DNA from: Malus domestica
Taxonomy: Eukaryota > Streptophyta > Magnoliopsida > Rosales > Rosaceae
Length of the DNA: 64,000 bases
Reading direction: 5' to 3'
Assembly (NCBI RefSeq): GCF_042453785.1
Contig: NC_091674.1
Coordinates: 28,407,501-28,471,500, forward strand
The notes under the pieces were generated by a model. The model saw only the letters and a program-made list of their open reading frames with translations. It had not been told where the DNA came from and ran no database searches. Shown here one piece after another: positions 1 through 57,813 of this stretch. A program made the position numbers and the translations under genes. How positions within the stretch are numbered: position 1 is the first letter of the stretch; each line of letters starts with the position of its first letter.

Positions 1-2955
1 GGTTGGAAAATTAATCTACCTAGCATTATTTTTAATAATATTATGCCCTCTCTATACCTTCAACCTTTCTCCTTTCCAGAAGAACCAAACGTCTTTAAAA
101 TTTCAGTGGCTCTATCTCTCAAACCTTGAAATGTTCATGGCCGCTAAACTACCAAGACTCCATAAAAAAGAATAATCAAGCAAACCCAATAACTCATACT
201 CCATATTTAGAAATTATCGTTGTACCAAGAACATGGTTCTTCGACCCAAAAACAAAAACAAAACAAAACATGTATTTACATCAATATTGGATCAAATTAT
301 CCAGATATTTTTATATCAAAGAGCATAAAGAAGTTACACGGAGAGATCCATAGAAAAATTAACAATTCTGTTTCATTGAAGAGAGTTGGTTTGTACTCCT
401 TTATGGGATCGTTGTTAGTTCTCTCTATCTTCATCTTGCTCAGGATCGCAGAAGCCCATAAGACATTTGATGCAGACTTCTTCTGTTGTTTTTCGACAGA
501 TTAGTAAGTTGAACTTGATACGCATGGATCATCAGAATGTTCATTGACTATTATAGGATACTTCGAAGACGGTGTTGAAGGTGTTTTTGGGGGTAAAGAT
601 GGCGTGGTTGTACTAATCATCAGATATGCAACCACAGAAGATACTCCAACAATGCCTTTAACAAATATCTCCTGTATTTAGCGTGAATGTCCCGACCCTT
701 ATCTTTCTTCGAGAAATAGGAAGAAACTGAGCCAGCTTGAGTGAGATCAATTTCTGATCGTGCAACTGAGAATGCATGCATCGGCTGAGCTTCCATCCAA
801 GCGACGGTTACATATCGCTTTAGCTATTTTGATCGATAGGGGCAAGTAGGAAAGCTATCTACAGGTTAATGTGCTTGGTTAGGCAATAACAGCAGCTCAG
901 CTTCATCCATGTCATGGTGCTGTAAGATGGTCCCAGTCCCCCCAACTCTCAACGTGTGATAGATTTACGTCGATTCTTCTTGAAGTTGGCTTAATTGTGA
1001 AAGCTTTTCTTTGTTGGTTGAGTTTCCATCTGCCTATGAAGTCAGTGTCTTATTGACTACACTTCCTCTTGCATTTATTTTGGCTTCTCCAGCGCACTTG
1101 CTGGTGAGGGCATGTATTTGCACCTAGAGCAGTTCGTCAGATAGAGAGAAAGTTCGAGCAGCAAACCCATTTGGTGAAGAGGGAGGGAGTTGGGTGTACT
1201 TGGCTTTTGTAATTTCTGTTTGATATCAATGGAATTTCCTCGCCGTCTCTGAACTAGCTTTTGCGTGTTATTTGGATTTCTGAATTTATCATATTTTGCC
1301 TTGTTTTGAACAATTCCATGTGCTTAATGTGCTTGAAATTTGATTTGGTAAAGGATGTGACAGCCACCTGCTTGTGATATCATTTTGTAAAAAAGCATGT
1401 GGAGCAAAAATCTTGGAGAAGAAGAGTATACCCTGTATACGCTAGCAGATACATCCCCTCCCATAATACACATGCAGGCATCCTGCTTATGTTTTTTATG
1501 ATTCGAGCGACGGTCCACATTAAACTAGTCTAACTACGGGAAGAGAGATTCAAATTTGTGTAAAGGTAAAGGGCATTGTTCTAACTAACTTGGCTTATCG
1601 CGTTTGCTTATGACTCACCTAAATGTTGTTCTTCTTTAGTTATGGGGGTTGCTCTTGTTTTGTGGTTAGGATGGGTGGGTAGTGATTTTCACGCTTTCAT
1701 TTTCTCCTTATGTAGTACGCCTCATTTTTTCGTGAATCTTAAATTTCTTTTAATTTATTCAATCCAAGAGAAAAACAAGGAGAAGTGCACGGGAAAAAAG
1801 GAATATACACAAATCAATGTAAAATAACAGCGTGAATTGGTTCCATTCATGCATAAAATTAGTTGTATAATATGCCAAATTATTCATTTTGTTAGCAGTT
1901 TAGTTTAGTTCGGTTCAGTTATTTTCATTCATAACTAACTAAGAAAATATTACATATTAATGGCTTTCATACAATAATAATATAACAATAGTTGATAATA
2001 ATTATTACCGTAAAAATTTGAGATTTACGCTCTTCCTTAACATATAATCTTCTCTAGGAAAACCCAAAAAATAATAGAGAAATGTTAAAAAGATTCTCTA
2101 TCAGCTTATGTTTTTTTTCGCACAATATTTTATAACGTTACCGTGGAAATTAACGTTAAGCAGTGAGGTAACAGAGAGTCCACACTTTGAGAGAATATTT
2201 CTCAAAAAAATATCCAAGAAATAAATAGATTATTATTTTCAATAAAAATAAATAAATAAAATGTGTGTCCTGACTGTCTCTAACCTGAAAGGCTTAAACA
2301 CAACTATTAAGCTTTCCTTTCTCTTTGCTTGAGAGCATTTCTCACTGTCTTGTGTGAGTGTTTGCAATTTCGTCACTTTTCGTTGTCGCTGATCCTAGCT
2401 CCGGTTGGGGTCGGTGGCAGTTTCTTCTCTGTTTGTTATGTTTTCCCTTTGCTCCTTTTCTAGTTTGTTCTCCACAATTCTTTGGCATCCCTTTTTCTAA
2501 GTCATTTCCAATTCGATTTGTAGTCACTTTTCATCGCGATTCGTCGTGATTTATCGAGTCGGTGTATCGAATTCCGGTGTTCTCATTGGTTCGTTGCATG
2601 TGGATCTCCACAGGCTTCAAGGGTGGTTTTTTCCAGCTTGTGGTTGCGATTGAAGAGTTGTTCTCAGCTGATAGAGGCAATCAGAGTGGGGATGCTTCGT
2701 TGGAAGCGTGGAAGCGGGCTGCTGGATGGGATTTACTGGTGTGCAAAAGGCTGCAGCAGAGATCTAGGTTGTTCTCGGTTTTTCCAGTTTGGGCTCAACC
2801 TTTGGTTGCGCTTTTTGTGTTTTTTGGGTTGGTCCTTTTTGGTTTGTATATTTTGTATGCGAGTCAGTAGTTTGTAAATTTGTGTTGTATGTTTAATAAA
2901 GTTTCATACCTTTAGTTGAACATAATAAAATAAATAAATAAAAGGCTAAATCCCC
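1..2955. other. Intergenic, no gene recognised
   Basis: No reading frame here resembles a known family and the longest are about 100 codons. The stretch 2330-2930 is less AT-rich than its surroundings and ends in an AATAAA-like signal near 2893, so it could be a non-coding transcript or the 3' part of an old retroelement. The stretch 360-1250 has the look of a decayed exon or 3' UTR, with a GC content closer to genes, but I cannot assign it. The stretch 1830-2280 is plain AT-rich spacer. Confidence 0.5.
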
Positions 2956-2958
2956 TTA

Positions 2959-3829
2959 GGCCATCTCCAACCGATGGCTGGTCAGATGACTCGTTTTAGC
3001 CTTCTAACCCTCCAAGATTCTCCAAGATATTAATATTTTAATGAACAGTACATGGTCATATTTGCCTCCGTCTCCAACCGATGGCTAGAGGGCCAGAGGG
3101 CTCGTTTTAGCCATTTCACAAAAAACCGTCTCCAACCGAGGGCCAAATGATCATAGGGCCAAACATAATTTATTATTTAAAAACTACAACTTTAATTCAT
3201 ATTGTTTAATGTTGTTTCATGTTACTTAATTTAATTTAATGTTGTATAATGACTTAGGAAGTTATAAGAAAAAAAAAAGAATTTAAAAAAAAATATGAAA
3301 CAAATTTTGTGAAATAAAAGTTATAGGAAAAAAAATGGAATTTAAAAAAAATATGAAACAAATTTTGTAAAATAGAAGTTATAGGAAAAAAATGGAATTT
3401 AAAAAAAATATGCAATAAATTTTGTGGAATAGAAGTTATAGGGAAAAAATGGAATTTAAAAAAAAATATGAAATAAATTTTGTGAAATAGAAGTTATAGG
3501 AAAAAATAGAAGTTATATGAAAAATTTTGTAAATAAAAAATAATAATTAAATTGTAAAAAAAAACAAAAACAAAAACAAATGCAACGGCTACTAGCCGTT
3601 GCATTTGAATTTTTTATTAAGAAATCATGTCGCTTATAACCGACAGGAATAACAAAACATTAAAAAAAAAATAGCCAGCCAGCCAGCCAGCCTTCCAGCC
3701 CTCTAGCCCTCTCCGATTCCATGGAGCCCTCCCAGATTCCAGAGCACTCTGGCCTAGCCCTCGGTTGAAGACGATTTTCGAACTATTTTCGACCCTTTAG
3801 CCCTCTAAACCCTTCGGTTGGAGATGATC
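2959..3829. mobile_element. PIF/Harbinger-like non-autonomous DNA transposon
   Basis: The left end GGCCATCTCCAACCGA is matched by the inverted right end TCGGTTGGAGATGATC, and TTA flanks both sides (2956-2958 and 3830-3832), as expected for a PIF/Harbinger-type 3-bp target duplication. The motif CTCCAACCGA(T/G)GGCT recurs inside near 3072 and 3130. There is no coding capacity. The interior holds an A-rich tandem array (3261-3535) and an AGCC repeat near 3673. The element ends about 530 bp upstream of the TOC1 start codon and so sits in its upstream region. The superfamily is inferred from ends and TSD only. Confidence 0.6.
3261..3535. repeat. A-rich tandem repeat, about 58-bp unit
   Basis: Four near-full copies plus a partial copy, each beginning GTTATAGGAAAAA, then GGAATTT, an A-run, ATATGAAA and AAATTTTGTG. 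Copies differ by a few substitutions and A-run length. The array lies inside the transposon at 2959-3829. Confidence 0.75.
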
Positions 3830-4430: not shown

Positions 4431-7400
4431 TTTGTGGCGTCGGTGGTGGTGCTGATGGGTTCATCGACAGGAGCAGGGTGAGGATTTTACTCTGCGATAA
4501 CAACGAGTACAGTTCGGAAGAGGTTTTCACGCTTCTTGTGAAATGCTCTTACCAGGGTATGAACATATTTTATTTTTGTAAAAGTTCATTACTTTGATCG
4601 TATCATCCTATTTGAAGTTTGGAAATTGTTAGAGCTTATCATTTGTTTGGTTGCTAAGAAAATGGAGTGAGAATTGCGAAAGAAAGGCCAAATTTTTAAC
4701 TTTTTGATGGTCTGAGAAAGAAAAAACAAGTTGGAGTTGCATTTTCTGTTGCTTTGTGCTGTTTTTTGTTTTCAATCTACAAAGATAAAGTGCACCGAAA
4801 TGATCTCAATTACGGTATGTGATAACGTGAATTGTTTGTCGTTGCGGACGTTTGATCGTTTCTATCTTTCTCGAGTTTCCAAATGAATCCTTTAGAGTTT
4901 AGATGAAAGATGGTGTGATTATTTTCAAATAAGTAAATTTTTGGGAAGAGTAATGCCAAACACGCCACCAGGATGACCAGGTTTAGGAAGGCCAACATAA
5001 AAAGCCAACGCAATAGAAGATGATTTGTGTGCTCAATTCTGACTCTCGATTTCTTTGCTTTACAGTTATTTCCGTGAAGTCTCCTCGACAAGTGATTGAT
5101 GCATTGAATGCAGAGGGGCCTGATATTGATCTCATACTTGCCGAAGTTGACCTTCCAATGCGCAAAGGCATGAAAATGTTGAAGTACATCACACGGGATA
5201 GAGAGTTAAGGCGCATTCCTGTAATCAGTAAGCATGTCTTATCCTTTTACTTCCATTTTCTTTCAATGATAAATGTTTCATATTAAAATTATAGTATTAA
5301 CCTCACTGCTGAACCTTTTTTTCGGTCAGTGATGTCGGCACAAGATGAGGTCTCTACTGTTGTCAAGTGCTTGAAGCTTGGAGCAGCAGACTATCTTGTA
5401 AAGCCTTTACGCACAAATGAGCTTCTGAACTTGTGGACACACATGTGGAGAAGAAGGCGCATGGTTTGTTTGCACGACTTTAATGCTTTTGTTTCTGAAC
5501 TGTTCTTCGAATTACCCCTTGCTTTATCAAAATCTTTCTCGATAGAAATAAACACAATAGGGATGCCTAGCAAGATAGCAAGTTAGAAATGACCGTCATG
5601 TAAGAGTTGATGTTTCATTTGGGCTGTTAGTATCTTTATATGACCCTTTTAGGTGGATGTACCATGTTGGATAGTTCAGAACAAAGCATGCAATCAAATT
5701 ACTTGGCTTCTCAGCCTTCTCACTTCTAAAGCTAAAGTTCGTACTCTTTTAGTTGAATGTACTTTCGTGTATGTAATACCTCTTTTTTCAAGTTCCTCAT
5801 CCCTAACTGATGCATATGCACTAGGATACTACTATATCCTCTCAAATTAGTAACTAAAACATTTTTATTTTATGTATTTGGCAGCTTGGGCTAGCAGAGA
5901 AGAACCTTATAAATTATGTTGATCTGGTGATATCAGACCCTAGCGGATCTAATACGAACAGTACTACTTTATTCTCGGATGATACAGATGATAAATTGGG
6001 CAATCCTGAGACAGGAACCTCAGCTCCCGAGGAAGATAAGGTGACTGTTTACTATTTATAATTTACTTTTTTGAAGATGAATTTTTTTGGTTGGGTAAAG
6101 GAGGAGGGGGAGGGCGTCAGGTAGTCGACAGCCGGCACTCCTCAGTTACGTCGAATCCTTATGAAAATGAATTCAGAACGAAATCGCGCAATGGCGTTTT
6201 AGGATTCATATAGCCGACCCCACTTAGTGGGAAAAGGCTTTGTTGTTGTTGTTGGATCTAAGATTAACTTAATATTTATTATATATAGAGTTAAGGCATG
6301 ATCGTTAATTAATTAATTTTATTTTTTAGTCTACTCCTGTTATGGAGCTTCCAGTCGAGAATATATCAGAATTTCGGCCCGATGTTCCAGGAATAAGTGA
6401 CCGGCAAACTGGTGAGCCACTTGTGACATTGAGAAATTTTGTTGTATCATATGTCGTAACATGTGTTCACTTCAAACACCATCATGTATGGCTAATACTA
6501 TTGTGTTATTCATTCGACTTCACTAATTTGAGTAAAGCAAAAACCTATCTTTAAGGATAATAGTTTTTCAGTATGACATTTTCATCTTTTACACAAATAA
6601 CTTTTTCCATTTTCTCTGATTATGTTCTTAGGAAAGTTTTTATCTGCCCCAAAGAAGAGCGAACTAAAGATTGGCGTTGGCAAGTCATCTGCCTTCTTTA
6701 CGTATGTGAAATCAAGCAAACTAAAAATCAATCCTCAGGTGGTTGCACATATTGAAGACATTGCCACTGAAAATTTGAGGATAGAAGAGAAACATGAAGA
6801 ATGTGTTCACCAAGTGGTTGATGATCCCCAAGTACATGGAAATGGAGAGGCGTGGGAAAGCAACTCACAGGGAGATGACTTGCCGAGCAGTAACAGTATC
6901 CCAGATTCTCTTTCTTTGGAGAGGTCTAGTACCCCGTCTGGATCAATGGAACTTCAAAATCAGAGCAGTTTTGAGGAAGACAGATCCTCTCTGGTGCCTG
7001 CACATCCAAGAAATGAACCTCAACATGATTTTTCTGGCCTACCTGCCCAAGCCGCCTATCAATATTATATGTCGGGAGCTGTCAATCAAGTTATGATGTC
7101 ATCATCACCCGAAGTTTATCAAAAGAATCTGCATGACATGCAAAATCATGCTATGATGCCGCAATACAATCATTTTCCACACTGCCCTCCACACCTAAAT
7201 GGGATGGCTTCGTTCCCCTATTATAGTGTATGCTCGCAACCTGGTCAACAAATGCCGAATGCTCAGCCATGGCCATCATTTGGAAGTTCAGCATCCACTG
7301 AAGTGAATCTAAATAAGGTTGACAGAAGGGAGGCAGCATTGATTAAATTTAGGCAAAAAAGAAAGGAGCGCTGTTTTGATAAAAAGATCAGGTATGTAAA

Positions 7401-26013: not shown

Positions 26014-29000
26014 TCATTGCACTTGACAACCCTGCTCTTCGGCTCCAAGATATATCAGTCCCCGGTGTATTCTCTGAAGACCAAAAATGGATAAGAAACC
26101 GCCTAATGACACAAACAACAGAGCTTCGCAGCTCTGTAGTTCATACGGCATGGCGTTAACGTATGAACTTATTCTAAATGAGATCTCAAATAGCATGTGT
26201 TTGTTGAGAAGTATAATTCATCGGTAGGCCTTACGTGTCCATGAAATCGCTAATGCAAAGACGGGAGAGAAGTAAAATACCTCTTTTGTGTCTCGCAAGC
26301 GTAGAAGATCCAACCTTTCATGAGGACGCCGGTTTGATAAGGAAGCAAGCTGCGTCCAATCATACATTAATGGCGTTAGTAACATGATCGTGCCCTCAAT
26401 ATACTAACGGTAAATGAACAGAAAGTTATAAGGTTACCCAAAAGCTGAAGCGTTCAGGATCTTGTAGTGAAGGCATCATCACTTCCACACCGAGAAGTCT
26501 CTCAAGTCGTCTTCGATCTGCAAAGAGACGGTCATACATTAAAAGTGGAATATGGGATACCAACATAAAAATAGGGGCAGAAACCATTTTCATGGAAACT
26601 GGCAACACATGTATACTCTCGAAAAAGACCATACGTCATCCCTGAGCATTTTACCTTGACGTGCCGCTCTTTTACCCCGCGCTATCCATGATCGAGCATA
26701 TTCTGCTGCATTTCTTGCCAATTCCTGCAACTGTACAGACATAGAAGTTAAACCACTGTGCACAACCAAAATGACAGGAAAACAAGGAATGACATTATCG
26801 TCCATCTTCCCATTTCGAGAAACCAAAGTATCATAAACTTACTTCTTCTCTCGCTTCAGACCCTTCTGGTGGAATGTCTTGCACCCATTCAATCTCCGCA
26901 ACACGGTATCTGAAAAGCACATTAAAATGACAAATATATTTAGCAAGATGCCAAGAACAGTTACTGGAGGCTGAATGAATAGCTAGACAACTCACCCATC
27001 TTGGTCCCAAGATCGAATTATGCAAAACCTTCGCCGACTTTCAATCTGCTTGAAATTTTATTGTTATAAATATATGACTGGCTCTATGAAGAGGAAAATC
27101 ACAAAAAACAGTATGCCACGAAACATAAAGGATAATCGTTCGTTAAATGAAAAGTAGTATCTAACCTCTAAATAAAAACGCCCATCTGGAAGTGGCTCAC
27201 ACCTACATAGATAGTAATTAGTAAAATAGTTATAAGAAAAAAAATCTATAAAATAGAAGTATTAAGAGGCAACATTCATAGTGGAGTTTACAAATGACAT
27301 TCTGCATGATATAAACTTAAGAAGGAAAGAAGGATGATGAAAGACATACTCGGTAATTTCCACTTCGCAAGCAAAATCAGCTATTGAACCTGTTGAAGAA
27401 TCAATGATAACCTATAAAATACAAGAAAGCCAGAGTCGGTGAAAGTTATACTTCGTATCAAACTTCATATAGGTACAAAATGTTGAAAAGGAAAGAAAAG
27501 GACCAGTGACAATAATCTACCATTCCCATCCGACGATTGCCTTCCATTATCCTCCTTACCTGTTGTTTAAGTAACAAGTTAGTTAAAAACAAAATCTATA
27601 ATTATTCTATACAAACACATGGACCATACAAATGTACCAAGTTGATAAACAAAAACTTTGCCAGATAAGTTTGTCAACATAGTTCTTTTGCATAAAATGT
27701 ACCTCTATGTCAATATTTTATGAATGTCATATGTGAAAACTATAAATTGCTAAGCAACTTACCATAAGTCTATACCGCGGTTCAAAAATGTGCAGCGGAA
27801 ACTTCTGGAATGGGAGGACAACATCCATTACAAAGAGAGGCATCAAATCAACACCAAAGTTTGTCATTTGGTCATTCTCTACCTTCCTTTCGGCAAATTC
27901 TTCTGGGAAGTTCTTTTGTATAATGTCATTGAGTGTAACACTGGCAAAAATGAAAATAAAACATTGCATGATGAACATTACAAGGTGAAATCCTGAACCG
28001 TTGCCAGGATGTTCAGCCATTCCCCAACTAAAAAAAAGCATGGGCACAAAAAACCATAAAGCAATAATTCTGATGTCAAATGATACAAGTCATTCAAATA
28101 TTATAAATCAGCAATTTACCTGATTGCGCACGTTCGAGGACTAATGAAAAGAACTGTTCGGCACAAAGGACATTTGTTACCTAAGATAATTAACACAGGT
28201 CAGAGAAAGAAGAAGAGAAAGATATATACAAGCTCAATTAAATAGAACAATACCAGCAAAACACTCACCCCGATCCATTGACTGAAATAGGCATGAACGA
28301 CAAAAGGAATGCCCACAAGGAGTTGTGACAGGTTCGTATAGTAATTTTAAGCATAGTGTGCAATCATAGTCATCACTGCGTTCTGCTTTTCTATGGCTTC
28401 TCCTCCCTGTGAAATTAGCTCGTATTCTCTCTAAATTCTGGAAAGATTCCTGAAGATAATTGCTACAGAATACCACACAAAAACAAATTAGAAATTCACA
28501 AACAGAATCTCGTACAGCCAGTGGGTTTGAATAACATATAATATGTTATATCCATTTATTTAGTAATCAGGAAAGTGAATAGCGTTATTATTACCTAAAA
28601 GGATTAACCTGAAGACCCGAAAGAATAACATCACGGGCCATTTCATATTTCTCCAACTGCCAATTCAAATGAATGCAAACTAATCAATCACAAGTAAAAA
28701 GGTGGAAGGGGGAAACTAATCATTGCAGAGAAAAATAATAATAAATAGTTGTAACCTCATATCCAATCTGACAAAAATTATGAAAAGGAGCCACACAGCG
28801 TGACAAATTTACAAGTAATTAACCACTGGTTGCCTCTTCCTCTTAAGAAAAGTATAAAGGTAAAATAAATAGCAACACATTCTCACCAAAATGAGAGTTT
28901 CGGCCTTTAATATGTACGCCTTTTCTGAATTACTTAGAAGGTTGACTAACTTCTCTGCATCCTTTAATGCAAGCTGAAGATTTTTTAAGTTCTTTAGAAT

Positions 29001-32382: not shown

Positions 32383-32553
32383 GTACGAGAATTTTTCAGT
32401 GTGTCGAGAACATAGTATGAAACACTATAATTGGTTTAAAACTTAAAAAAAACTAAAAAATTTAGTCTATGACACTTGGTATTCCACTGTGTATTCTCAG
32501 CATACTAAAAAAATTCTCGAATAATACAAGCTAGGGCAGATTTGGGTAGGAGT

Positions 32554-32752
32554 GGATTTGGATCCTCTCCTGAGCTAATGGAGAGGATCCTCCTAACCCA
32601 TCATCGTGGACCATTGGATTTTTATCCAATGATTATAATTATTATAACTTTAAAGGGATCCTCTTTTTTGTAACCGTTGGATAAAAATTCAACGGCCTAG
32701 GATGATAGGTTAGAAGGATCCTCTTTATTAGCTCAGGAGATGATCCAAATCC
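32554..32752. mobile_element. 199-bp MITE with perfect 9-bp target duplication
   Basis: Terminal inverted repeat GGATTTGGATC...TCCTGAGCTAA, mirrored at the right end with a small change. Flanked on both sides by GGTAGGAGT (32545-32553 and 32753-32761). The 9-bp duplication and lack of coding capacity fit a Mutator-type MITE. Confidence 0.85.
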
Positions 32753-33786
32753 GGTAGGAGTGAGTTGGGATTATGTGGACTAAGGATTTTAGGGTGGTGT
32801 TTGATTGAGATAAGGCCACGTTGACCTGGTTATTTCCACATTATTTTTTCTGTCCTTTTGGTTTTACTATTGTTATTATTCTATTTTTAAATTGATATGC
32901 AACTAAGCATCTGTCTTTGTCTTAATTCAGGCCTGCTTTCCCACACAAAAAGAACACTTAGTTGGTTTGAAAGTTAAAACTGTTACTGTGGAAAGTAGTG
33001 CTGTTTATAAGCGTTTTTAGATAGTAAAAGAGTTTTTAAGTTGTTTTGCTAAGTAGTTATGGTCGAAATGGTATTTGGGTAAATTATATGGCAAGTTTCG
33101 TATCAAAATCTGGTTTGTGGTTCAAAGTGATCATTTGGTCTAACAGTCGATGTTCTAAAAAATTTCGCCTAACACTGTCTAAGCTCCGCTTAAGTGCTAA
33201 ATGATTTGTCATCACCTCGATTAATTCATGGTGTTTCAAACTGTAGTAAAAATGCGAAGTTAAATGCATAAAACAAACGAGCAAGATTTAAATCTTGTCT
33301 TGTATTGTATTGTATTGTCGCTATGAATTTGGAATCAATTAAACTTGGTCGGCATCAAGTGTGTCTTTTTCTCATCAGGCATAAATGATGGCCTAATAAA
33401 TTGTCTGTTTGTGAATTTGTGATCCTCCTTATTTTCAGAAAACAATTATCTAATGAAAAAAAGTATCACTCCAATGAAATAGGTGAATACGCAAAATTTT
33501 ATTTTATATTTTTTTTCACCTTTGATATTTAATTTTATCTTTTATTTTTTACTTTTTTCCCTTACCATATAGAATACAGGTTCGTTTCGACGTGTTTTTA
33601 AAATGACTGAAAACTATTTTGATGAAAATATTTTTGAGACCAATCCTTAGTAAGATCCTAAAAAAAAACTTGAAATATTTTCTGCAAGAAGCACATATTT
33701 GGTGGTTCTTCCAAAAAAACACTTAAAGTGTTTTTGGAACCCAAAATCAATTTCACCATAAACGTTTTTAGTCATTTTAAAAGCAC

Positions 33787-34010
33787 TTCCAAACAAACTC
33801 ATTTTATTATAAATAGATGTGTGAGGTCGAGTTTTGCCTACACATATAGAAGTAGTCAATTGTCTATGTAGCTCGTGAAAACGAATTTGACTATTCGTTT
33901 CCAAACAAACTCATTTTATTATAAATAGACGTGTGAGGTCGAGTTTTGCCTACACATATAGAAGTAGTCAATTGTCTATGTTAGGTCAAGAAAACGAATT
34001 TGACTATTCG
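33787..34010. repeat. 112-bp tandem duplication
   Basis: Two adjacent copies beginning TTCCAAACAAACTCATTTTA and running through GAGGTCGAGTTTTGCCTACA and CAATTGTCTATGT, with only a few differences. No function is evident. Confidence 0.85.
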
Positions 34011-34183
34011 TTTGCCTACTTCAAACTGTCATCTTTTAGTCGTTTGTCTAATCGCACTTTACAATGACTTTTTTTCAAGTACAAATAATACTCTTACAAT
34101 GAGGCCTCGTTTGGTACGCTATTTTAGGCATCGGATAGGACTAATAATATGGAGCCGGATGGTTGACGTCCATATATATTAAA

Positions 34184-35545
34184 GGGTAAAAGACTGTTTA
34201 CTACCCTTATGTTTCGTGGTTTTCAACATTTAGTACATTAAGTTTTTTTCATCTCAGATTCATACCTAAAGTGTAAATTTTGGGACAGTCTCATACATCC
34301 ATTAGTCAAATTGTTAAATATGCCGTTAATTGTGACGTGGCGCCCATGTGGACAATGAATGGGCGCCACGTGTCATCCATGTTTTTTTTTCTTTTCTTCT
34401 TTTTCTTCCTTCTTCTTCTTCCTCCGATTGCAACTTTATTTTTTCTTCCTTCTTCTTCTTCCTTCGACTACAACTTTTTTTTTTCTTCCTCCTTCTCCTT
34501 CTTCATTCCTCCTACTTCCTTCCCCTTCTTCTCCTTTTTCCTTATTCTTCCTTCTCCTTCTCCTTCTTCTTCTTCTTCTTCTTCTTCCTCCGAATCTAGG
34601 GAATTTTTTTTTTTTCCTTCTTCTTCCTCCTTCTTCCTTCTCATTCCTCCTACTTCTTCCTTCCTCTTCTTCCTCCGAATCTGGGTTGCACATTCGGTTT
34701 TTTTTTTATTTTTACTTCTTTCTTCTTTCTTCCGCTTCCTCCTTCTTCCTCCTTTCCTTCTTCTTCTTCTTCTTCTTACTCCGACTGCAACCTTTTTTTT
34801 TTTTTTTGAGAAAGATGAAGAAGAAGGAAGAAGGAAGAAGGAGAAGAAGGGGAAGGAAGAAGGAGGAAGGAAGAAGGAAGAAGAAGAAGAAAAGTTGTAG
34901 TCGGAGGAAGAAGAAGAAAGAAGAAGAAAAAAAAACCTTCATCTTCCCCAGATTCGGAGAAAGAAGAAGAAGAAGAAGGAAGAAGGATAAGAAGGAAAGG
35001 AAGAAGGAGGAAAGAGAAAGGAAGAAGGAGAAGAATGAGGAAGAAAAAAAAAAGTTGCAGCTGGAGGAAGAAAAAGGAAAAAAAAAAAAAACCGAATCTG
35101 CAACCCAAATTTGGAGGAAGAAGAAGAAGAAGAAGAAGAAAGGAAAAAAAAAAAAAACCTTCCCCATATTTGGAGGAAGAAGGAGAAGGAGAAAGAAGAA
35201 GAAGGAAAAGAAGGAGAAGAAGGGGGAAGGAAGAAGGAGGAAGGAGAAGGAAGACGGAGAAGAAGGGGAAGGAAGAATGAGGAAGAAAAGGAAAAAAAAA
35301 AGTTGCAGTCGGAGGAAGAAGAAGAAAGAAGAAAAGATAAAAAAAAAACGTGGATGACACGTGGCGCCTATTCATTGTCCACATGGGCGCCACGTCACAA
35401 TTAACGTAGATTTAACAGTTTGACTAACGGATATATGAGACTATCCCAAAATTTACACTTTAGGTATAAATCTGAGACGAAAAAAACTTGATGTACTAAA
35501 TGTTGAAAACCACAAAATATAAGAGTAGTAAACAGTCTTTTACCC
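34184..35545. mobile_element. 1.36-kb palindromic foldback element (Mutator-like)
   Basis: The ends GGGTAAAAGACTGTTTACTA are exactly inverted at the right. The inverted arm continues for about 200 bp each side, including the GTGACGTGGCGCCCATGTGG block. A perfect 9-bp target duplication TATATTAAA flanks it (34175-34183 and 35546-35554). Inside the arms the left half is a TTC/CTT pyrimidine run (34381-34795) and the right half a GAA purine run (34810-35350), so nearly the whole element can fold on itself. Within each run, units with CCTCCGA(C/T)TGCAAC recur. Long frames here are low-complexity artefacts. The TSD length and foldback form point to a MULE-type element. Confidence 0.85.
34381..35350. 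repeat. Mirror polypyrimidine/polypurine tracts
   Basis: Roughly 415 bp of (TTC)-rich sequence followed, after a short T-run centre near 34800, by about 540 bp of (GAA)-rich sequence. It combines a hairpin-forming inverted repeat with a triplex-prone purine/pyrimidine asymmetry. Confidence 0.85.
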
Positions 35546-35947
35546 TATATTAAATAGTCATCGGATTAAATAGTCATGCCCCACCTATTTTATGCGGTGT
35601 ACACCCGTTTAGTTGTACACTCTGAAACCACTGTATTATTTAGTCGAGTAGAAAACACTCTTGCTCGCTTGCTCTCTCCATCCCTCTCATCGCTCTCTCT
35701 CTCTCTCGTCCCTCTCGTATCGCTTGCTCGAGAATCTCATGTTCTTCTTCTTGCCTCTCAATTCTCCCCTTCTATTTTTCTTGCAATTTTCCGCGGCGGT
35801 TGCTGGTGGGATTGCTGCACGTAATTGGAGAAGAGGTAGAACGAGAGTTGCTGGACGTCGCGCTAGGCTTCTTCCTTGAAAGCTTTATAAAGGAGTTGAT
35901 CCTCGTCCAAGTCGTCGCCGCCACTCGACATTGATGGGGATCATGTC

Positions 35948-52800: not shown

Positions 52801-55800
52801 ATAAATCACAAGCAAGAAAATATATAATTGATGAGGAGATGAAGTCATTTCAGATTGTAAAAAGGGACTATAAAAATAACCAACAAAATCGTAAAAAAAA
52901 ACAAAAAAAAAATTGTAAAAACGAATAAAGGCCACACCTTAAGAAGTTCCATCTCTTCTTTAGTAGGACAAAATTTAATTAAATTTTCCACCTGATCAAC
53001 ATCTAATACTGAATCATCCATTGCTAAAACGGCAGCCTGAGAATGTGCATACAAATACATAATTAGCTAAGTATGAAAAGTGTTCATTTACAACATCAGC
53101 ATTAGAAACACTCGGAAAGTAAAAGCCAATTGAGAAGACTCATCAGATAAGCAAATTATCTATATTCACGAACCACGAGTAAGAAGAAATTCAACTGGAT
53201 CAGCTTACCATCATATCAGGAAGTGGCATCTTAACTTTTGTGAGCATAATTTCTGTGTTGTTTGCCCTTCTCAGGTCAATCTACAATGTGGAACAAAGTG
53301 AATCACAGTAAGAAAATAGAGAAGTAATAGCATCTGACATTATATTGAAAAATGAAGAAAAAAAATATTCATCAAAACAAATCTCTGCTTTAACGAATAT
53401 AGCCAACACGCAGCAACGTGCACACCCAACTAATTAATATAAGTGCAACTATATAACAAAAACTCTGGAGACATGGAGGGATGGATGATAGATGGTTACA
53501 TTCTAACAGAATAATCAAACCCCATAACTGGTAGGAAGACCCAGAAAGTATAACAGGAAAAGAATCCCCTTTAACAAGCATAACTTTAAGAATATATGAT
53601 TTTACAGTAAAATAACCAATTGTACAAAATTACCAGTTGGACTTTCTCAGGTTTAGAACCAGCAGACTTGCGGCGCCCTCCAGATTTATCTGAGTTTGCA
53701 GGTTTTGGAACTATAGCAGAGAAAAGGCTCTCTATCTCTGACACATCAAATTCTGGCTCACTAGATTAAAAGAGAAGCACATTAGTGATTTGAAATGAAC
53801 AATCTGAAACAAAATACACGGTTGCATGTGTTAAACATGTAAGATCCATCAAATCAACAACATAACTTTATGGCAGAAAACATGCTGCTAACGGAATGAT
53901 AAGTTGAAAAATAAGATGGAATACTTTTGAGTCTCTCCATGTCTTTGCAGCTCCTCCCACAGGCTTCCATGCAACGCCCTTGTCACCTTGCTCCAATGTA
54001 GTGGTTTACAAGAGGACCGTCGGGGCGCTGTGGCAGGTATCCCACGTCCGCGCCCTCTACCAGCGGTAGCTCCTCTGGCACCTAATGTGGGTGGCGGTGG
54101 AGGAGCACCACCAGGAAGTCCAGGTGGAGCAGGAGGCCCAGGACTACAACCTCCTGGAGGTGGTGGGGGAGGTGGTGCTCCATGCAGTGAGGGAGTGCGA
54201 CCTCCACCAGGAGGTGGAGGAGGAGGTGGTGCACCGTGCCCTGATGGTGGTGGAGGGGGTGTAGGTGTGCCCCCACGCATTGGCGCGGGCGGCGGAGGTG
54301 GTGCACCATGTCCTGAAGGTGGTGGAGGTGGTGGAGGTGGCCCCCCATGCATTGGAGGGGGCGGTGGAGGTGGGGCACCATACATAGGAGGTGGTGGCGG
54401 AGGTGGGGCACCATACATAGGAGGTGGCGGTGGAGGGGGGGGCCCCCGCATTGGAGGTGGTGGTGGTGGAGGTGGAGCTCCACGCATTGGAGGTGGTGGT
54501 GGTGGTGGTGGAGGTGCTCCCTGCACTGAAAATGGTGGTGGGGGTGGTGGAGGTGGAGTTCCACGTAACGGTGGTGCCGGTGGTGGAGGTGGAGCTCCTT
54601 GCATTGGAGGTGGTGGGGGCGGGGGTGGCGGTAAAGCTCCACGTAAGGGAGGTGGAGTTCCTTGCATTGGAGGTGGTGGTGGTGGTGGGGGTGGTGGAGG
54701 TGGAGTAGATGAAACTCCCAACATAGGAGAAGGCGGTGGAGGAGGTGGGGTACCACGAGTAGGTGGTGGCGGTGGAGTAGGTACTCCAACTCCAAGAGGC
54801 TTGGATGCACTTGCAGCAAAAGGAGGTGGAGGGGGAGGCGGCTGTGGTGTAACACGGGCAGCTGAAGAGTACCCAACCTTCCAAAGAGATGAAGAAGTCA
54901 GTGGAGGCATTATGGTGCCACTATTCTGCCCACCAGATTGTCGCGGAGGGGGAGGGGGAGGTGCAGGGACCAAAGCTATACCAATATTCTGCGTGCTAGA
55001 TGACAAGGCATAAGGAGGTGGAGGTGGAGGTGGAGGTGGTGGTGGTGGTGGTGGCAGGGGAGGATATGGGAACAAGGACGAGACTGAAGAGGGCTTTGAG
55101 AAGATAGAGTTAGCACTTAGCAGAGGTGGCAGCGGTGGTGGTGGAGGAGGTACAGCTACCTGTGACAATGGGGTAGCTGGTGACAAAAGCATAGGAGAAG
55201 TGTACAATGAAGATATTTGAGACACAGGTGGTGGAGGGGGCGGGGGAGGGGGAGGAGGAGGAGGAGGAGGAGGAGGTGGAGGTGGAGGCGGAGGGGCCAC
55301 TACTGCTGCATCAATATGTTCTGTTTTAATAGAGGAAAGCTCTGTCTCTTGGATTGGTGGTAGTGTCGATGGCAGGCAGGATGTGGATGTCTCTGTAAGT
55401 GTCTCTGGTGCAGACTTTGAATGCTTCAAAGGGTCCACCTTACTATGTTTCAGTTCAGTTTCCACATCCTTTGAAACCACAGTTCCAGAAGAACCTTTCA
55501 ATCGAGCATTTGCATTTGTATCTTTTGAAGAAGCAGTACTGGCAACACCAGCTGGTGCACTATTATATCTTGATGGTGGATAGTAAACATGCATTGAATT
55601 AGTATAAGAGCCTTTGTTAGGGGGAATCCACCTAGATACTGCATTTGGTTTTGCTATTTTTGCCGAAGTGCCCTGAGTTTCTTGTTGTTTAGTCTTCTGT
55701 TTTGCAACCGTAGTTTCTGCACCTACTTTTGCATTAAATGAAGGCTGTCTCTTATAAGCAGGTGGCTGCAATCTCTCAGATTTCGGTCTAGAGACCTCAG

Positions 55801-57813
55801 CACTCGGTTTTGATTGTGCAACCTTGGTCTCTGACCTCTTCCGTGGAGCGCAGTCTTCTTCATTAATTATATCTTCCATCTCTTCCAATTTCTGACACAC
55901 CTCTTCTACCACTTCCTTAGATCCAGTATGACTCCGCACATCAGCAGCAACTGGGATGAAATTTGACTTCATATCTCCATCATCCACAGCAATGTCTTTC
56001 ACTGCATCGACATTGGAATCCACCTCATTGAGCTTGTACTTCACATCGTCAACAGCAATGTCCTTCACCGCATCAATATTAGAATTTGCCTTTCTGTCCT
56101 TTTTGTGCTTCCCATCATCTGACGTACAGTCTACAAATGCCTGACGATCTAAATCCTCCTTCCAGATTTTTTTCTGAACTATATCTTTAGGAGTATTGTC
56201 GTGAACCATGGAAGTGTCCAAATCCGCCTTCACTTCGTGTGAATCCAATGCATTGCTAAATATCTCTTCCACCTCAAAAAATTCCTCAGGTGATGCATTC
56301 CCTGGCTCGCTTTCTTCACTTGCCACAACTGTGGTGATATTAGGCACAACAGCATCAGCGTCCAGAAAAAGTACCTGATACAGATTTGAGTATGCATTTA
56401 ACTCCTATAGCTTCAGAAAAGGACACCCATATAAGAATAAACAATGACATACCTCTGCTCTAAAGTCCTTTGGAAACTGATCCTTGGCATCCCAAAGAAT
56501 ATCAATATCATCACGACCCAGCATCAATATATTTGATCGTACAAATGCTGTGTGGAACATAACCCGCAGCATCATCTCCTCGCGAACCAGATCTTCATCT
56601 AGGTGGATGCATTCAAGAACCACATCCCCTCTAACACGGCAACGAATATCAATTTTCACCAGCACACACTCTGCCTGTGATTAGGATTCATAAGAACGCT
56701 AAAAAATATATCATCTTAGTCATCAGATTTTGTTGCATGAAGTAGACATTACCTGTACATAGAGGTGGGTATTCTTTTCATTCCTTAAAGTTGAAAAGAG
56801 AAGCTTAGAGCTCCTGTTAGCTGGTGTAGAAGGGTCTTGACCAAAAACACGGATAAAAGGCCTACAACCTTTTCCGTCATCAAAAAGCGGTAGGTTTCGA
56901 AGTATCAGACAATCCAAAAGTAGAGGTGTATCTGATGGAGGCCATTCAGAACCCAAATTTCGTCGTGAAATGTACTGAAGATATCTCATCTGCGAAGGCT
57001 GTGGGTTTAAAGGAGATAAAATATTGAGAAGTTCCCTAGGAGCCTGCTTGTAAACCATTTCAAGAGTCTTCTGCTCCCCACTGTATTGTTTACGGTACAA
57101 CAGAAGACCCGCAAGCATAAACGCGAGAACAGGCCATCCTCCTCTTTCACAGTGCATCAACAACACATTCTGTTGCCCCTCCAATGACAACCAACTCTCA
57201 CTCGAACGAAGGAAGTGATGAATCATCTCTAGTGGCAACAGCGGGCACCCCTCATATTGCCGAGGGTAATCCATTACTGTCATGTCATACTGCGTAAGCA
57301 CGTCGGAAATTTGGCTCCGCTTATCCCCTTCTCTGAAGTTAAACACCATGAAAGAAGCATCTGGGAAGTAGTCTTGCAGCTGCGCTACAATGCCACCCAA
57401 GTATACTTTGTACTCATCTTCTTCCAACACATCGGTCGAGAAGCAGCAGTCGAAAACTGCATAATTCGGAGCCAAAACAAGTTAAAATCAATCCACATTA
57501 CACTAAAAGGTTCACAATTTTGAGCTAAAACAATCCACAAGCATATATAATGCACGAAAAAACAAAATTTGATCGAATTCGAAGCAAATTCAATCGCATT
57601 TCAACAAGAACCCCAGAAAAGACTCTGAATTTCCATCAAATCCAACCGCATTGGCCCAAACCTCAACAGATTGAGCACAAAAAGACCAGAACTTCGCAGA
57701 ATTTGGCAAAATTCTCAAGAAAGACGAAACGGCGACGTACCGTACACCCGCTCGGAGATCTCAAGAAGCCGATCCGGCGGCTTCCGATAGAAGAATCGTC
57801 TGAACAGCGCCAT
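49846..57813 (-). CDS. FH20: Class II formin with PTEN-like domain (FH20-like)
   Basis: Actin-nucleating formin. I infer 17 exons on the minus strand: 57741-57813, 56753-57456, 56453-56674, 53925-56374, 53634-53760, 53209-53280, 52938-53036, 52750-52791, 51729-51809, 51582-51632, 51417-51498, 51040-51134, 50737-50808, 50537-50653, 50356-50424, 50200-50266 and 49846-49997. Phases close, giving 1524 residues. The start MALFRRFFYRKPPDRLLEIS equals Arabidopsis FH20. The PTEN-like domain occupies about 1-190. Its loop reads HCERGGWPV (about 125-133), lacking the catalytic Arg of HCxxGxxR, so it is probably a membrane-binding pseudo-phosphatase. A C2-like domain follows (about 200-335), then a charged linker, a very long FH1 proline tract (about 695-1095) and the FH2 domain (CKPLHWSKVTRALHGSLWEE through GRNADALALYFGEDPARCPF). 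The C terminus is a charged helix. Exon borders of the short FH2 exons are by eye. Confidence 0.92.
52578..52692. mobile_element. Short MITE in formin intron
   Basis: AGCATCTCCAATGG at left and CCATTGGAGATGCT at right are exact inverses about 115 bp apart. It lies within the intron between 52750 and 51809 of the formin gene, away from splice sites. Confidence 0.7.
53988..55310 (-). repeat. Proline-codon repeat tract (FH1 region)
   Basis: GGTGGAGG-type sequence on the plus strand encodes runs of 5-20 prolines separated by M(R/Q/Y/H)GAP spacers on the gene strand. This is profilin-binding FH1 sequence. It also creates long glycine-rich frames on the opposite strand that are not genes. Confidence 0.9.

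Follow-up and report, generated by a model that had tools for sequence, protein, structure and literature searches.

Positions 34184–35545 of the window (the whole 64,000-nucleotide stretch of Malus domestica DNA analysed here) hold an exactly bordered element of 1,362 bp, inverted at its ends, which we interpret, at a probability of about 0.9, as a copy of a non-autonomous foldback transposon family of the Mutator (MULE) superfamily, that is, a foldback TIR-MULE. The argument, drawn from sequence comparison, joins two observations: a family with fixed termini, arms and target duplications, and a relative, L046, that combines the same termini with Mutator transposase domains. The window element was probably moved by the enzyme of such a related, larger Mutator-type element in the same genome. 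The class of transposon is not new; the kind is ordinary and the family well defined. An earlier sequence-only reading of this DNA had arrived at a foldback MULE family with 9-bp duplications and many arm-sharing copies, and the copies, their duplications, an empty site of copy L040 and the transposase-bearing L046 all support it, with a qualification to its further remark that no named family has this design.

Structure of the window element

The element is bounded on both sides by the 9-bp target site duplication TATATTAAA, which is unstranded (left, 34175–34183; right, 35546–35554). Its left terminal inverted repeat (34184–34380, plus strand) is a non-repetitive segment of about 197 bp, the first 189 bp of which also form the ends of L046, and its right counterpart occupies 35349–35545 (minus strand). 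Between them lie a left inner arm of pyrimidine-rich tandem modules (34381–34807, plus strand), which ends in a central T15 run (34793–34807, plus strand), and a right inner arm of purine-rich tandem modules (34808–35348), equivalent to the pyrimidine modules on the minus strand; the switch from pyrimidine to purine thus falls between 34807 and 34808. The inner tracts consist of imperfect, TTC/GAA-rich tandem modules in which three boxes recur, A (CTCCGACTGCAAC), B and C, with matches in the left inner arm at element offsets 238 (A), 278 (A), 407 (C), 492 (B) and 595 (A). The sequence GGGTAAAAGACTG at 34184–34196 and its reverse complement at 35533–35545 are the sole exact 13-bp matches within the window. 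The inversion is perfect over the first 21 bases, and the two 197-bp arms are 92.9% identical, which places them among the terminal inverted repeats of at least 100 bp expected of a TIR-MULE.

Purity reaches 0.89 in the pyrimidine tract and in the purine tract alike. The element scores 0.78 for polarity; across 476 randomly chosen, equally long window segments, some of which overlap, the scores average 0.10 and do not exceed 0.31. When the element is cut at the pyrimidine/purine switch, its arms measure 624 and 738 bp, and their alignment (626 against 736 bp) comprises 539 identities, 55 mismatches and 174 gap columns. Composite arms of this kind, in which the number of tandem modules varies, are characteristic of foldback elements. 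The exactly inverted ends, non-repetitive arms of about 200 bp and perfect 9-bp duplication described in the sequence-only reading were thereby confirmed. Its nearly complete 1.36-kb palindrome has exact coordinates but unequal arms that align only with the gaps given above, and the mirrored TTC and GAA tracts do meet at the central T-run but are not exact mirror copies.

Copies in the apple genome

We searched the genome (651,096,769 bases in 19 contigs) with the left arm of the window element and scored the best 40 of 2,453 first-look candidates. This yielded 43 matches in all, which resolved into 37 loci, comprising the window and 36 others, each of which was fetched and read. A facing arm pair was present at 36 of the 37 loci, the exception being the solo arm L029; paired copies ranged from 750 to 2,276 bp (median 1,401.5 bp), in a sample biased toward those closest to the left arm of the window element. 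In two pairs of loci, L014/L015 and L030/L031, the similarity extends into the flanks, so that at most 34 of the 36 insertions are independent. The sequence-only reading had named many copies with 9-bp duplications as part of the support for a foldback MULE family, and the arm search gave 36 paired copies, mostly with duplications. Pyrimidine-then-purine polarity scored 0.71–0.84 in 34 of the 36 copies and was weak in L028 (0.34) and L043 (0.44).

Across the whole genome, the 23-base end was found, allowing up to two mismatches, 507 times in forward and 511 times in reverse orientation, whereas the reversed-sequence control gave 0 and 0; these 1,018 termini are ends by sequence, counted whether or not they belong to pyrimidine/purine foldback copies. 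Among the 100 perfect terminus places listed, a hand count gave at least 22 facing pairs 0.8–2.3 kb apart and one at 6.3 kb. Near-identical termini number about a thousand in the genome, and almost every copy sampled is a long near-palindrome built from TTC/GAA-type tracts. Together they offer natural sites at which to test how plants deal with such DNA in silencing, replication and recombination.

Some loci have a more complicated structure. Extra terminal arms lie next to the paired ones in L009, L028 and L043, and the outer arms of L009 could represent an older element invaded by a foldback copy. In L043, positions 2256–3779 form a composite with slightly different outer terminal repeats, in which the left interior is non-repetitive and the right side carries a purine arm and an inner terminal repeat of the foldback family. 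L037 has a second, more diverged arm pair (4943–6623; 74–76% identity to the window arm), with an interior that by eye is unlike the pyrimidine/purine tracts. The facing pair 6.3 kb apart, L045 (G000:C5:8879800–8886700), was considered as a long relative and rejected, with a retrotransposon gag domain inside and a pyrimidine/purine-type arm on one side; it is apparently a foldback copy split by a retroelement.

Target duplications and a related empty site

Duplications were sought at 8–10 bp with shifts of up to three bases, using ends mispaired between copies as a control (n = 1,260). A perfect duplication flanks 28 of the 36 copies, compared with 46 of the 1,260 mispaired ends, and 35 of the 36 have one when a single mismatch is allowed, in agreement with the target site duplication of about 9 bp that marks a TIR-MULE; for L038, the search at 8–10 bp found none. 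An exact 9-mer at the chosen boundaries occurs in 24/36 copies and in 11/1,260 mispaired ends, a comparison that somewhat favours the true pairs because their boundaries had been fitted beforehand. A+T makes up 97.6% of the 23 perfect 9-mers, to which one duplicated pair contributes both its members, compared with 68% of the flanks, which indicates that the sampled insertions prefer AT-rich sites.

When the two flanks of copy L040 are joined, they match window positions 3422–3659, which lack the element, at 90% over 238 columns with 7 gaps. Judged from this alignment, window 3422–3659 is a related empty site of L040: the foldback copy sits in another genomic copy of the repeat at window 3258–3659, and the stretch can serve as its empty counterpart. 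Weaker empty-site matches (77–83%) were obtained for L013 and L032. The repeat at 3258–3659 itself consists of a tandem array with a 58-bp period and adjoining DNA.

A transposase-bearing relative shares the terminal repeats

One terminus on contig C1 lies 2.8 kb from a match to the MULE transposase family, and among the transposase matches listed, this is the one that was read, as L046. The locus, on a contig other than that of the window, contains a 4,936-bp element (L046:3981–8916) with a perfect 9-bp duplication, TATGGAAAA. Its terminal repeats, of about 250 bp, are 97.6% alike; they match the window arm at 90–92% identity across 189 bp and reach up to 95.6% with other foldback arms in local alignment. 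The minus strand encodes MULE (PF10551; 1.4e-18), Transposase_mut (PF00872; 1.5e-7) and SWIM (PF04434; 7.2e-9) domains, all over the cut-off, along with a sub-cutoff match to DBD_Tnp_Mut (9.4e-5), so the terminal repeats of the foldback family are shared with an element that encodes a MULE transposase. The transposase matches are pieces of one frame broken by in-frame stop codons in the unspliced sequence. An inverted-repeat search of L046 returned the terminal pair only, and its interior has no pyrimidine/purine polarity (score of 0.15, or 0.07 when the 480 bp adjoining each end on the inner side are taken). A relative of this type offers a concrete partner for trans-mobilisation tests.

Arm comparison and competing explanations

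Of the 72 arms, 52 have a match to box A at 210–290 bp from their end, a placement shared by both arms in 22 of the 36 copies, and 58 have a match to box C at 290–410 bp. A centre motif, in which GGAAGATGAAG (one mismatch tolerated) comes after a T-run, is present in 28 of the 36 copies in one or the other orientation, never in both, which argues for a single ancestral foldback. A stricter version of this motif allowed 25 of the 36 copies to be oriented, and we compared their outer 196 bp. The two arms of the same copy are 92.9% identical, and a left and a right arm taken from different copies 92.2%; left arms are 94.7% identical to one another, a likeness that may stem partly from the use of a left-arm query, and right arms 90.1%. 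The right arm closest to a given left arm is its own partner in 4 of the 25 copies. Since arms of the same copy are about as similar as arms of different copies, and partners are so seldom the closest, there is no sign of continuing homogenisation in the outer 196 bp of the 25 orientable copies. The proposal that arm-to-arm gene conversion or hairpin-templated repair actively maintains the palindrome could draw on the tendency of both arms toward the same outer boxes, but given the arm identities, in a comparison that covers the outer 196 bp and not the tracts, we regard it as improbable.

The same comparison bears on whether the inverted repeat could be an assembly artefact, for instance where a collapsed repeat was folded back on itself. 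Assemblies are known to contain errors in the form of long near-perfect palindromes, yet the 36 paired copies, up to 34 of them independent, lie in their own flanks and mostly carry a perfect duplication, and the arms of single elements are non-identical and mostly not each other's closest; we therefore reject this explanation as having almost no chance of being right, and neither a lack of arm-sharing copies nor an artefact, named in the sequence-only reading as grounds for abandoning it, was encountered. Scarcely more probable, and likewise rejected, is a TTC/GAA microsatellite-type expansion that turned palindromic locally with no transposon involved: the inner tracts are indeed TTC/GAA-rich tandem modules, but an expansion of this kind sits poorly with fixed, non-repetitive termini and target duplications, with a centre motif common to most copies, with the L040 empty site and with terminal repeats held in common with L046. 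A different proposal sees in the pyrimidine/purine arms a host-gene fragment that was captured, in the manner of a Pack-MULE, and later multiplied; it is compatible with a foldback TIR-MULE and concerns the origin of its interior. The modules contain recurring, non-simple boxes, and in L043 an arm of this type adjoins a non-repetitive interior of unrelated sequence; we hold this origin to be possible but on the unlikely side.

Substitution history

Substitutions were counted relative to the majority consensus of 66 unique arms, leaving out the four arms of L028 and L043. Copies differ by several per cent in their arms, a divergence that lends no support to the active family envisaged in the sequence-only reading, and most of the changes are of the C-to-T type, affecting 9.3% of CG, 8.4% of CHG and 3.7% of CHH sites, compared with 0.24% for the reverse type; with a majority consensus as the reference, shared variants are counted many times in these figures. 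Altogether, the 472 arm changes comprise 328 transitions and 144 transversions, and at least 306 are of the C-to-T type. An excess of this kind would be the expected trace of methylated-cytosine deamination in all contexts, and it fits past methylation of a silenced family.

Folding, DNA structure and a proposed mechanism

As RNA, the window element has a computed fold of −812.5 kcal/mol with 82.7% of its bases paired, while three base shuffles gave −313 to −322 kcal/mol and four other window segments −262 to −379 kcal/mol. In this fold, the arms fill nearly the whole element and form one hairpin, as expected of a foldback element; the long double-stranded RNA suggested in the sequence-only reading is to this extent supported in silico. 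Mirror repeats that are in principle capable of forming triplexes number 2 in the window element, 1–15 per copy among the 36 copies and 4 in the remainder of the window. Cruciform and triplex formation by the element are, from its sequence, possibilities. One citrus study proposes that a TTC-repeat motif forms a triplex in a deletion associated with a MULE (PMC4334395).

We propose that a transposase of the L046 type would bind the terminal repeats of about 190 bp and mobilise copies in trans, with AT-rich 9-mers as targets. As cargo, the element would carry the inner pyrimidine/purine arms in the form of tandem modules, whose number may shift by slippage or unequal exchange, which would leave one arm longer than the other. 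Transcripts that read through a copy would fold into a long hairpin, a probable source for small-RNA-directed DNA methylation that silences the family. The polarity, present in 34 of the 36 copies and absent from the transposase-bearing L046, might conceivably be more than cargo, with a cruciform, triplex, R-loop or self-made double-stranded RNA affecting the amplification of the element itself, for example through hairpins exposed at replication or silencing tuned family-wide. We consider such a role unlikely.

Relation to known families

Several families with related designs have been described. MuTAnT of Medicago truncatula comprises short non-autonomous foldback MULEs (about 200 bp to more than 1.6 kb) that target (TA)n and, like the apple family, have 9-nt duplications, long modular foldback terminal repeats and A+T targets; it also has an autonomous partner with a mudrA-like protein (PMC4486113). 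The (TA)n targeting and the size range are particular to MuTAnT, and pyrimidine/purine arms are absent from the consulted part of its description (PMC4486113). FARE of Arabidopsis (Windsor and Waddell 2000, cited in PMC4486113 and PMC3169594), a plant foldback family now counted among the MULEs, resembles ours in its long palindromic ends, a likeness by description rather than by comparison of arm sequences. The Tm1 Mutator/Foldback family of root-knot nematodes, which has a separate transposase-coding member, shares composite terminal repeats, a variable number of tandem modules, unequal arms (93.15% alike on average) and mostly 9-bp duplications (PMC3169594). It differs in its module of about 14 bp, asymmetric extreme ends and animal host, and the portion of the text consulted describes no pyrimidine/purine polarity (PMC3169594). 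The extra terminal arms of L009, L028 and L043 recall the MULEs with multiple terminal repeats reported by Ferguson and Jiang 2012 (PMC3310237), but here they accompany pyrimidine/purine tracts, and L009 may be nested. Within the rose family, Falling Stone (FaSt) of Prunus is also a non-autonomous Mutator element, compared here by description, and at 349 bp is much shorter (PMC13359793).

Among the matches listed in a search of the open-licence literature, no foldback MULE with arms of the pyrimidine/purine type was found for apple or other Rosaceae. The earlier remark about the lack of a named family stands, within this search, for pyrimidine/purine arms but not for foldback MULEs with modular arms as such, which are known from MuTAnT and Tm1 and, by citation, from FARE. 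The distinctive feature is the pyrimidine/purine polarity of the arms, which sets the family apart from MuTAnT and Tm1 as far as these are described in the texts consulted.

Surroundings of the element in the window

Across the whole window, Rfam at gathering thresholds gave no match and ARAGORN no tRNA. Pfam searches of eight stretches around the element returned a single sub-cutoff match (THU_Piezo1, E = 0.0091, 27730–28089), and we therefore claim no gene adjoining the insertion. By eye, a tandem duplication of about 112 bp (33788–34010) lies directly to the left of the element, and a short inverted-repeat, MITE-like stretch (32548–32760) starts near TGGATTTGGATCCTC. On the minus strand, positions 53891–57481 contain a long repetitive open frame of 838 aa beside a sub-cutoff PTEN_C2 match, a combination that we presume to be reminiscent of a class II formin.
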